Part shown: positions 19,820 to 24,980 of the stretch, piece by piece | Numbering within the stretch: position 1 is the stretch's first letter | How the letters are laid out: each line of letters starts with the position of its first letter | NCBI GenBank assembly: GCA_015488885.1 | Contig: WFMW01000048.1 | Span: forward strand, 1-57,767 | Reading direction: 5' to 3' | From: Gammaproteobacteria bacterium | GTDB taxonomy: Bacteria; Pseudomonadota; Gammaproteobacteria; SZUA-229 | Length of the DNA stretch: 57,767 nt | Notes under the pieces: model-generated | Seen by the model: the letters and a program-made list of their open reading frames with translations, nothing else | Databases searched by the model: none | Told to the model about the DNA's origin: nothing | Made by a program: the position numbers and the translations under genes

Positions 19820-22423
19820 TTAGTTTATGGCGAGTTTTTTTAGCTGATAGAGTATATCCAGTGCCTCACGCGGGTTTATGTCATCGGGGTTTAAATTCTG
19901 TAGCTGTTCGATTAAAGGATGTGGCTGATCATTAAAAAGTTCATACTGACCGCTTTGCTGAGGGAGGCTGGCCGCCTGTTGTTCAAGTAGCTGTAGTTTT
20001 TTTCTTGCCTGTTCAATGACCGGTCTGGGGACACCAGCCAGTTGCGCGACCTGCAGGCCATAACTCTGGTTTGCCGGGCCGGGTTTTACGCTATGTAGAA
20101 AGATGATTTTTTCACCATGTTCTACTGCATCAATATGGACATTATTGATACCGCTGATTTCCTCAGGCAAGGCAGTGATTTCAAAATAATGGGTGGCAAA
20201 CAGGGTATAGGCGCGGTTGTGTTTGCTAAGTTGCCAGGCACAGGCCCAGGCCAGTGACAGGCCATCGAAAGTGCTGGTGCCACGGCCTATTTCATCCATC
20301 AATACCAGACTATTCGCGGTGGCATTATTGAGAATATTGGCGGCTTCAGTCATTTCTACCATAAAGGTCGAACGTCCGCTGGCAAGGTCATCCGAAGCAC
20401 CGATACGGGTAAAAATACGGTCAATTGGCCCGATGACCGCTTCCTGTGCAGGTACATAACTACCCATACAGGCCAGTAATACAATGAGCGCTGTCTGCCG
20501 CATATAGGTCGATTTACCCCCCATATTCGGCCCGGTAATAATGCTCATGCGTTTGCTGTCACTGAGCAGGGTATCATTGGCGATAAAAGGGGTATCCAGC
20601 ACCCGTTCAACCACCGGGTGACGCCCCCGGGTGATATGAATGCCGGGTGTATCAACCAGGGTTGGGCAGTTATAATCCAGTGTCTGGGCGCGTTCTGCCA
20701 GACAGGTGATCGCATCGAGTTCAGCAATGCCTGTGGCACAAAGTTTAAGCCGTGCAATATTTTGCTGTAGCTGTTTAAGTAACTCGTCATAGAGTGATTT
20801 TTCCAGTGCCAGAGCACGTTCACGCGCACTCAGCACTTTTTCTTCATAGCGTTTGAGTTCTTCGGTAATAAAACGCTCGGTGGTTTTTAAGGTTTGCTTG
20901 CGAATATAGTCGTCGGGTACCTGCTCCGATTGCAGACGACTTATTTCAATATAATAGCCATGTATGCGGTTATAACTGACTTTTAATGTTTTGCAGCCGC
21001 TGCGTTCACGCTCACGCATTTCCAGCTGGGTGAGAAAATCATCGGCATGTTTACTTAAACCGCGTAGTTCATCGAGTTCAGCATGATAACCTTCAGCAAT
21101 CACGCCGCCATCGCGAATCAGTACCGGCGGATTATCTTTGATGGCGCGTGTCAGTAGCTCAACCAGATCTGGATGGGTATTGATATTGATGCTTAGACTG
21201 TTTAACCGCTTACTGTGACAGTTTTGCAGAATGCTTTGTATGTCGGGCAACACCCTCAGTGACTGCTTTAAGGTAGTGAGATCACGTGGGCGTGCTGACA
21301 GTAATGCCACGCGACCTGTAATGCGCTCGATATCACCGATTTTATTCAGGATGCTCTGGATATCTGCGACAGACTGCTTATCGATTAACTCGGCAACGGC
21401 CTGCTGGCGATATTGCAATGGTTGCCGGTTGCGTAGCGGGGTGTGTAACCAGCGCCGCAGACAGCGGCTGCCCATGCTGGTAATACTGCGATCGATCACC
21501 GAGGCAAGGGTATTCTCTGCACCACCGGTTAAGTTAACTTCAATTTCAAGATTACGCCGACTGGCCGCATCCAGTACCACCACATTATCGGTATTTTCAA
21601 CCTGAAGACTGTTAATATGCGGTAATGTTGCACGCTGGGTATTCTGTACATATTGCAACAGACAACCGGCAGCCATAATGGCAACCGTTAAATCATCGCA
21701 GCCAAAACCACTTAGATCACGGGTTTGAAACTGCGTATTTAACAGCCTGTCGGCACTGTCAGCATCAAACCACCACGGTGGTTGCAGGCGCAGGCTGGTT
21801 TCAGTTTTCAGATAATGTTCGAGATCACTGGCAAGTGTTGAATCTTCTGCCAGTAGAATTTCAGCTGGATTAAGGCGTTCCAGTTCAGCCAACAGTTGTT
21901 CTGCTGAGCGCACTTCGAGCACACAGAAACGGCCAGCACTGATGCTTAGACTGGCAATACCAATTTTATTCGCCTGTTTATGCACACACACCAGTAGATT
22001 ATCTTTACGCTCATCAAGCAGTGCTTCTTCAGTTACTGTGCCGGGGGTTACAATGCGCATTACCTTACGTTTCACCGGTCCCTTGCTTTCACCAGGTTTG
22101 CTGACCTGCTCACAAATGGCGACAGATTCGCCGCGTTTAATCAGCCGTGACAGGTAATTGTCGGCTGCATGATAAGGAATGCCACACATTGGAATCGGAC
22201 TGCCATTGGAAGAACCGCGTGAGGTCAGGGTAATGTCCAGTAGCCTGGCAGCTTTTCTGGCATCATCATAAAACAACTCGTAGAAGTCACCCATGCGATA
22301 GAACAACAGGGTATCGGGGTGGTCAGCCTTGATGCGCAGAAACTGCTGCATCATCGGAGTGTGAGTGCCAAAATCGGTGCTATGATCGGGCTGATTGGAT
22401 GTTGTTGAGGTGGATACAGTCAT
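19820..22423 (-). CDS. mutS: DNA mismatch repair protein MutS
   Basis: An 867-residue mismatch-recognition ATPase. Domain I contains [15 protein letters not shown] near residue 42, with the conserved Phe-x-Glu mismatch-contacting motif in its usual place. The ATPase domain has Walker [14 protein letters not shown] near 625, [14 protein letters not shown] and [15 protein letters not shown], and the C-terminus carries the short tetramerisation tail. Length compares well with E. coli (853). It is the 5' gene of a mutS-nadK-recN block on the minus strand. Confidence 0.97.
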
Positions 22424-22672: not shown

Positions 22673-24442
22673 ATGAAGCATACCCGTATCAATGTCACCA
22701 TACAGTCCGGTCGGCCATCGAGCCAGATAAGCCTGAGTGATGAGGCCCGGCAGGATGTACAGCAGGCTTATCTTGTCTCTCAGCGTCAACGTTTTAAAAT
22801 GGAAGTCAACCGCCTGACAGGTGGTGAGATGCTAGCCATGCTACAGGCAAAATCCAGTGCCGGTGCGGCATCACAAAATCTGGCTTTTTTGATGAGTTAT
22901 GTCTATATCTGGTACTGGTTAGAGCATAATGTGCATAAAAAATTTCAGCCTCAGGTATTAGCGGTATTTACTAAGGGTAAACAGGCTTTTTTAATGGCAA
23001 TGTTGTTGCAAAGCAACAGTTCTGGAGATTTTATCCGTCAATATATTCAGTACTGGATTGATTATCAGGGAGAGGCACAATTACAACAGCAGCAGATACT
23101 AGCGTTACTCAAGCAGCATAATAATATGATAATGCTGGTTCAATACATTGAATCTGTCTGGTCATCAATGCAGTTATTTACCCGGTCCCATGCACAGGCA
23201 TATAAGGATCTGGCAAAGCAGGAAAAAGACCGTTATACAAACATGCTGGGTGATGACGACCGGGAACGGCTGGCACTGATCGACCAACTGCCTGACACAG
23301 CACTGTCAGGCCGATTTACTAAACTCGGTATTATTCCTGCGATGGGCTGCCCGCAAACCTGTCGCCATTGTATGTTTATTTTTCGTCCATTAATGAAAAA
23401 TACGCAAGACCCCATGCCCCTGTATCAGATGGTTGATACATTAACGACATCGGTGTTATTTACCGGTGGTGATCTGAGTAAACATCTGAATCATTTTTAC
23501 CAGGCTATCAGCAGTATGCAGCATGTCTCGACTTTTGCCATTTTATTGAATGGTGATTTTGCCGATACGCGTGAGAGTACCCGGACGGTGTTAGCGAATA
23601 TGGCAGCGGCTGTTCGCCGACGTTCGATTACCTGGCCAAAAGCAAAAGTTATGTTACAGATTAGCTTTGATGAATTTCATCAGGAAGTGGTGGTGGACCG
23701 TCACGGGAATTTAACGGAGCGCATTCCCGTGACTAAAATCGCCAATATTGTTGAGGCAGTAGTACGTTTCAGCGATGAGATCCAACTGTGTCTGTTACAC
23801 AAACAGGGGGCGCTAAATTTTTCCATGGCATTGTTCGAGAAGGGGGTATTCGCCAGGCTGGTCAGGGAACTGGGGCGGCGGGGTCATCAGGTCAAAATTA
23901 CTTCAACAGCGCCATCGAGCCGGTTAAAACGTAATCCGGCTAATCCCGATAATCCTGCACCATTGATTAAAGATGCAACATTTATCCTGGCAAAAAATCC
24001 CGATGTACCCCTGATGTTTACCAGCTCCACTATTGATGCATATGGCCGTGCTAATACCATGGCATTACATGAAGCCGTCAATGAACGTGACCTGTTAAAA
24101 CAGCTGCTTGTCGGTAAAGGGGCGGGGGGTGAGGTCTTTGATAAAGATATGATGTTCTGGTTTAATGGCTGGGTTACCCTGTTTTCGGCAGTACATATGT
24201 GCCTGGGTAATGTGTTTACGGACGGCCTGACACTGATTCGCCAACGCCAGCTTAAAGACCCGCTGACAAATGCCTTAAATCAATTCGATTTACGTCTGCT
24301 GGCGTTTTACCGCGAGAAGCGCGATAATCTGGACACTATTATTGAAACATCGACCAGCCCTCATCATCTGTTTCATTGTATCACCGAGAACAGCAAAATA
24401 CGCCTGCATATGACCCGTCGTTTACTGGAACAGGGCGGTTAA
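22673..24442 (+). CDS. Radical-SAM-like protein of unknown function
   Basis: A 589-residue protein I do not recognise. Residues 226-233 read CPQTCRHC, a C-x3-C-x2-C motif of the radical SAM [4Fe-4S] site, followed by VLFTGGDLSK with GGD at 265-267 in the place of the usual GGE strand, and a conserved-looking QISFDEFHQE near 335. Before it are about 220 mostly helical, Gln-rich residues with no family I can name; after it, 250 residues include STIDAYGRANTM and CLGNVF. No signal peptide or membrane helix is evident. It stands alone, divergent from mutS, with no clear ribosome site. A SAM-dependent radical enzyme is the best reading, substrate unknown. Confidence 0.7.
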   Translation: MKHTRINVTIQSGRPSSQISLSDEARQDVQQAYLVSQRQRFKMEVNRLTGGEMLAMLQAKSSAGAASQNLAFLMSYVYIWYWLEHNVHKKFQPQVLAVFTKGKQAFLMAMLLQSNSSGDFIRQYIQYWIDYQGEAQLQQQQILALLKQHNNMIMLVQYIESVWSSMQLFTRSHAQAYKDLAKQEKDRYTNMLGDDDRERLALIDQLPDTALSGRFTKLGIIPAMGCPQTCRHCMFIFRPLMKNTQDPMPLYQMVDTLTTSVLFTGGDLSKHLNHFYQAISSMQHVSTFAILLNGDFADTRESTRTVLANMAAAVRRRSITWPKAKVMLQISFDEFHQEVVVDRHGNLTERIPVTKIANIVEAVVRFSDEIQLCLLHKQGALNFSMALFEKGVFARLVRELGRRGHQVKITSTAPSSRLKRNPANPDNPAPLIKDATFILAKNPDVPLMFTSSTIDAYGRANTMALHEAVNERDLLKQLLVGKGAGGEVFDKDMMFWFNGWVTLFSAVHMCLGNVFTDGLTLIRQRQLKDPLTNALNQFDLRLLAFYREKRDNLDTIIETSTSPHHLFHCITENSKIRLHMTRRLLEQGG

Positions 24443-24632: not shown

Positions 24633-24980
24633 ATGCTACCACGCTTTATTTATGAGGTATTACCATACTTATATTTAAGTATTGGGCTTACAACTGGGCT
24701 GATATTTCATTCCAGTGTGATTTTTATTGCCGCTTCATTATTGATTGCGACAGGTATTTCAATTCTGTATATGCGGTTTAGTTACCGACGTAAATTACAG
24801 CAAGTATCCACCACTACCAATAGCCTCTCTGCGCGTCGGCATCATTATGTCAGTCGGTGCAGTGCTGATCGTCGGCGGAACCAGTTATTGCCATTTCCAT
24901 TGATTGATTGTTATGGTTATCTGGTTACCTATGATCGTCGCCGGGGTGAGCGCAGAACGTCAGATTCTCCGGTATCATGA
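24633..24980 (+). CDS. Small membrane protein with Arg-rich DRR/ERR tail
   Basis: A 115-residue hypothetical protein. Residues about 10-48 form two closely spaced membrane helices ending in the basic MRFSYRRKLQ; the rest is soluble and ends YDRRRGERRTSDSPVS. The DRR-x-(G/A)ERR pattern also occurs in the small protein at 36286-36471 and earlier here as SADRRRNQ. It has no strong ribosome site; AAAGGA lies about 25 bases upstream. The last 6 bp overlap the convergent cysQ gene. No function is known to me. Confidence 0.55.
   Translation: MLPRFIYEVLPYLYLSIGLTTGLIFHSSVIFIAASLLIATGISILYMRFSYRRKLQQVSTTTNSLSARRHHYVSRCSADRRRNQLLPFPLIDCYGYLVTYDRRRGERRTSDSPVS

Follow-up and report, generated by a model that had tools for sequence, protein, structure and literature searches.

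The gene at positions 22673 to 24442 of the window (the whole stretch of DNA analysed, a contig of 57,767 nucleotides from a gammaproteobacterium) encodes a protein of 589 amino acids that, as judged by sequence comparison and structure prediction, is well supported as a radical-SAM enzyme that belongs to a subfamily not previously described and would cleave S-adenosylmethionine (SAM). The subfamily is strongly conserved, and it appears to reuse the scaffold of the EpeE epimerase without that enzyme's auxiliary cluster or catalytic cysteine.

The open reading frame (forward strand, ATG start, stop codon included in the coordinates) is a genuine coding gene, since relatives with 60-71% identity to the window protein have full-length open frames and since the codon-position differences that separate it from close relatives fall mostly at the third position (137/89/318 in the case of locus L014). 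The divergent neighbour, mutS (19820 to 22423, reverse strand), was identified from its sequence. It lies outside the system and does not adjoin the gene in most relatives. Downstream of the gene, at 24633-24980 on the forward strand, there is a small membrane-like open reading frame with hydrophobic stretches and no family match. I rejected it as a partner: its relatives, 60-70 residues in length, sit near cysQ (in L017, L019, and L060), and its presence tracks cysQ rather than the radical-SAM gene.

The window protein finds no match above cut-off in curated protein libraries. It seemed unfamiliar because, taken by itself, it misses the Pfam model Radical_SAM (PF04055), which nonetheless matches 66 of the 68 aligned members of the family (best E-value 1.2e-8). 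The motif C226-x3-C230-x2-C233 (23348 to 23371, forward strand), characteristic of the radical-SAM [4Fe-4S] cluster, is invariant in all 68, and the SAM-binding GGE/GGD motif, G265-G266-D267 (23465 to 23473, forward strand), has both glycines invariant and the aspartate in at least 90% of members. About 65 further residues are invariant. The original prediction, which drew its radical-SAM call from the three cysteines and the GGD strand, was correct in the position of the reading frame and of both motifs, and the call is upheld by the conservation of the cysteines, the Pfam matches, and the fold described below. A match of the window protein to another Pfam model, WH_CYT4, was set aside, as its 21.8 bits lie under the cut-off of 27 and only 5 of 68 members share it.

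The structure predicted by AlphaFold2 from the 68-row alignment (pLDDT 91.5, pTM 0.89) has a radical-SAM fold around the cysteines. Residues 208-589 (23294 to 24439, forward strand) make up the catalytic part, a partial TIM barrel with a C-terminal domain, which corresponds to the fold of EpeE/YydG (PDB 8ai1-8ai6; TIGR04078) by VIA, Foldseek, and profile-profile comparison. VIA superimposed this part on EpeE (8ai6_A) with a Z-score of 24.3 (rmsd 3.4 over 304 residues), as compared to 14.5 for the runner-up group. The Foldseek match to EpeE has an E-value of 1.8e-8, and the profile-profile match to EpeE-like proteins has a probability of 96% and an E-value of 1.3e-9 over residues 216-390. The C-terminal 250 residues, which had been said to match nothing, therefore have a clear structural relative. 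Besides the fold, the family shares with EpeE/YydG the CxxxCxxCxF start, the GGE/GGD motif, the motifs NG(F/D) and S-x-DE(F/Y)H, and an aspartate in register with EpeE D210. It differs in possessing an extra helical N-terminal domain of 205 residues and in lacking conserved cysteines at C206, C222, and C223 (by register), a match to the family model, and an epipeptide operon.

After EpeE, the VIA ranks are occupied by anSME, SuiB, SkfB, and ChlB, so that the nearest fold and those that follow it all belong to modifiers of peptides or proteins. This ranking favors a reading in which the enzyme is a peptide or protein maturase descended from EpeE-like ancestors, and in which the N-terminal domain recognizes a target whose gene lies in another part of the genome, for example a respiratory or housekeeping protein that is itself conserved. 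I regard this as a real possibility, if one that falls well short of even chances. The SPASM/twitch maturases among these proteins (anSME, SuiB, SkfB, ChlB; Z about 14) share with the family a radical-SAM barrel followed by a DGxV-type hairpin, but the family lacks their auxiliary-cluster cysteines in the C-terminal domain.

EpeE contains two [4Fe-4S] clusters, and the hydrogen donor proposed for it is Cys223 (PMC8326336). The C-terminal domains could not be aligned from sequence profiles alone (globally aligning the profiles for this half of the family and of EpeE gave a meaningless result), and EpeE residues were mapped instead by strand register, taking the EpeE sequence from the PDB alignment, the strands 493-496 and 500-503 from DSSP of the model, and setting G499 on EpeE G217. 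The region in question consists of D492 and the beta-hairpin 493-503 (24146 to 24181, forward strand), followed immediately by F504 and S505. By this register, EpeE D210 corresponds to D492, invariant in the 68 members, a point in favor of a peptide or protein target. C222 corresponds to F504 (phenylalanine in 68 of 68), C223 to S505 (serine in 35, asparagine in 26, alanine in 4, glycine in 3, and cysteine in none of the 68), and C206 to position 488, where cysteine is not among the common residues. Regardless of register, C226, C230, and C233 are the only invariant cysteines, the next best being C510, present in 57 of 68. The family thus also departs from the PoyD-type proteusin epimerases, with which it shares only the radical-SAM cluster: PoyD homologues strictly conserve a single cysteine (Cys372) and carry a C-terminal RRE (PMC8326336), whereas no cysteine outside the radical-SAM motif is strictly conserved here.

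An auxiliary cluster and a hydrogen donor of the EpeE type are therefore unlikely in this family, given the lack of any invariant additional cysteine, the serine, asparagine, alanine, or glycine at the register of C223, and the score of the window protein against TIGR04078, 18.7 bits as against a cut-off of 300. The same observations, together with the absence of an epipeptide gene across divergent loci, make it very improbable that the protein is a true EpeE/YydG peptide epimerase, despite a fold that matches at Z 24.3.

There is a conserved histidine-rich stretch, H564-H565-L566-F567-H568 (24362 to 24376, forward strand; H564 in 66 of 68, H565 in 61, and H568 in 66), near what I infer to be the site equivalent to EpeE Cys289/Cys292. 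H508 (24194-24196) is likewise conserved and near the site of EpeE's cluster cysteines, and the four histidines H508, H564, H565, and H568 could constitute a metal site.

From these features a course of reaction may be proposed. One [4Fe-4S] cluster per chain would reductively cleave SAM, and the 5'-deoxyadenosyl radical would take a hydrogen atom from the substrate. The substrate radical would most likely rearrange, eliminate, couple, or be quenched by another residue, rather than be epimerised as in EpeE, because the family would have no second cluster to act as electron acceptor and has no invariant cysteine that could give a hydrogen back. The N-terminal domain would supply the binding of the substrate or of a partner.

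That domain is all-helical, with nine helices from about residue 14 to residue 205 (22712 to 23287, forward strand), as AlphaFold2 predicts when given only this domain (pLDDT 91.5). Every full-length member of the family has such a separate helical domain at its N-terminus. It is far more variable than the catalytic part, with 19-27% identity to Magnetococcales, though R40, R47, W82, W163, R199, and D204 are kept. Searches with it found no convincing relative by sequence in the PDB, nothing better by Foldseek than an E-value of 1.8, a best E-value of 0.34 in a viral library, and by VIA a best Z-score of 4.8, the top rows consisting of TetR-like and phycocyanin helices, which I take as no match. 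Superoxide dismutase-like matches of the N-terminal profile had E-values of 0.6 or worse and were ascribed to chance. The description of residues 1-220 as matching nothing that could be named thus stands for both sequence and fold, and absence from the VIA list does not by itself establish a new fold.

The family comprises about 100 relatives, from Gammaproteobacteria of the sulfur-oxidiser type and from Magnetococcia. When about 85,000 genomes were scanned, 87 relatives were found and 80 retained; the 87 is a lower bound, since the pattern search requires exact short peptides. Among 40 genomes searched, 11 have the gene, the window's own included, and the other ten encode proteins at 60-71% identity in full open frames. 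The gene is present in 21 of 54 genomes of the window's GTDB family and in 33 of 48 genomes of Magnetococcia, the class that includes the complete genome G073 (4,719,581 bases). The gammaproteobacterial hosts include Sedimenticola, Thiolapillus, Chromatiales, Thiotrichales, and tubeworm endosymbionts (from Lamellibrachia and Escarpia), and one host assembly is labelled Nitrosomonadales. The relatives in Magnetococcales are at 37-40% identity. In a phylogenetic tree, the Gammaproteobacteria form one supported group, separate from the Magnetococcales rows, several of which are long branches, so that their branching order is unsure. In most genomes the gene is solitary and chromosomal, as would be expected of an enzyme with one fixed protein target. 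Relatives were absent from a plasmid scan (by tblastn), a scan of viral contigs, PADLOC, and PHROGs, and a mobile or defence role was rejected for want of any such sign.

The original prediction had the gene standing alone with no visible partner, and in the window and in Gammaproteobacteria generally this is so: the loci there show no constant partner and no constantly adjacent glycosyltransferase. The recurrent local neighbours include cysQ with a HAD phosphatase. A gene for the flavoprotein of flavocytochrome c sulfide dehydrogenase lies directly upstream in L044, L046, L050, and L052 and just downstream in L059, and L031, L048, and L083 have a sulfide:quinone reductase-like gene no more than 10 kb away. 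Many of the named host groups are known to oxidise sulfur. One might suppose from these neighbours and hosts that the enzyme has a part in sulfide oxidation, perhaps as a maturation factor for a flavoprotein or haem protein, but most loci have no such neighbours and dsrA occurs equally in the window's family whether or not a genome has the gene, and I consider a role of this kind quite improbable. In one gammaproteobacterial group (L061, L063, L067, L068, L069, L072, and L076), a gene for a macro-domain protein of about 240 residues follows downstream on the same strand.

Nor is there a small open reading frame family that recurs across divergent loci (62-63 testable flanks per side), in keeping with the earlier remark that no peptide substrate gene is visible. 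The recurrent neighbours include no RiPP peptidase/transporter cassette, such as the one that true yydG genes adjoin, and in the true-yydG loci used for comparison (L144 and L147) the epipeptide precursor gene lies alongside. Both absences speak against a peptide or protein target.

The situation differs in Magnetococcia, where the supposition of a solitary gene fails and where the shared neighbour that had been sought as a pointer to the substrate does appear. In most loci of this class a family 2 glycosyltransferase gene is directly upstream, scoring 193.2 and 194.6 bits with TIGR04283 (curated cut-off 182), some members falling slightly under the cut-off, at 174-179 bits. The stop codon of the one gene and the start codon of the other overlap, often as ATGA (L084, L112, L114, L119, L122, and others), and from this arrangement the radical-SAM gene is judged to be translationally coupled to the glycosyltransferase. 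All 21 of the gene-positive Magnetococcia genomes tested have one TIGR04283 gene (174-218 bits) that stands far above their other GT2 genes, and this top gene mostly adjoins the radical-SAM gene and has a long C-terminal extension. In this long variant (L112:10695-11735, reverse strand, with equivalents in L084, L114, L119, and L122) the extension is about 120 residues and has some conserved positions. Gene-negative Magnetococcia lack the long variant, except for G115; canonical TIGR04283 is found instead in most of genus g147 and in one genome of family f79. Considering only near-complete genomes, the long variant is present in 19 of 19 gene-positive and 1 of 6 gene-negative Magnetococcia (Fisher p 1.1e-4, kinship ignored), with the qualification that five of the six negatives come from one genus, leaving about two lineages as independent evidence. 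One gene-positive genome (G147) has a TIGR04283 frame of 245 residues whose subtype is ambiguous. The coupling could reflect no more than synteny inherited within one class.

Since TIGR04283 is the "arsenosugar biosynthesis" type of glycosyltransferase, and since ArsS was found in 31 of 31 gene-positive genomes tested (one below cut-off), a role in an arsenosugar pathway, after ArsS and the glycosyltransferase, has to be weighed. ArsS (TIGR04167) resembles the family insofar as it too is a radical-SAM protein whose gene keeps company with a TIGR04283-type glycosyltransferase. It is, however, a different radical-SAM family, separately present in the same genomes, and its model is not among the matches of the window protein at E-values up to 10. 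The gene does not adjoin ArsS in the loci read, and its coupled glycosyltransferase belongs to a long, divergent form of 174-218 bits, unlike the canonical type, which scores about 250-283 bits and adjoins ArsS in Gammaproteobacteria. Moreover, nearly every member of the window's family that lacks the gene also has ArsS and canonical TIGR04283, as do several Magnetococcia without it, so the co-occurrence of ArsS does not cleanly split genomes with the gene from those without. An arsenosugar role is accordingly improbable.

The Magnetococcia glycosyltransferase provides the first testable lead to the substrate. Because it is coupled to the radical-SAM gene and retained along with it in that class, and because no precursor-peptide gene is conserved, a sugar-bearing metabolite or a glycolipid would be a likelier substrate than a ribosomal peptide, although this is a weaker inference than that of the chemistry. 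The reading I prefer, with less than even confidence, is that of a single-cluster radical-SAM enzyme with an EpeE-type barrel that abstracts hydrogen from such a sugar-bearing compound. Against it are the closest solved relatives, all of which act on peptides or proteins, and the Gammaproteobacteria, in which no glycosyltransferase is constantly adjacent and the TIGR04283 gene is found with ArsS. That the target is instead a protein encoded at another locus is judged nearly as likely as a sugar-bearing substrate, because the closest relatives by fold modify peptides, even though the glycosyltransferase coupling in Magnetococcia tells against it. The preferred reading may be extended, more doubtfully, to a new class of single-cluster radical-SAM enzymes that combine the EpeE scaffold with a helical substrate domain and remodel what a dedicated family 2 glycosyltransferase makes, whether a glycosylated metabolite or a glycolipid. 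If that were true, the product would be a natural product or a constituent of the membrane in chemolithotrophs, shared by magnetotactic cocci and sulfur-oxidising Gammaproteobacteria.

A few irregular copies of the gene were encountered. L040 (8584-9189 and 9989-11740) and L075 (12960-13214) have a second, partial copy beside the full gene, and the partial copy of L040 may be an artefact of assembly, since it runs into unknown bases. In the Magnetococcia genomes G167 (C43:17919-19505) and G202 (C264:7470-9023) the gene was matched as two adjacent pieces, which suggests frameshifts or sequencing errors, and in three others (G147, G175, and G238) it contains one in-frame TAA.
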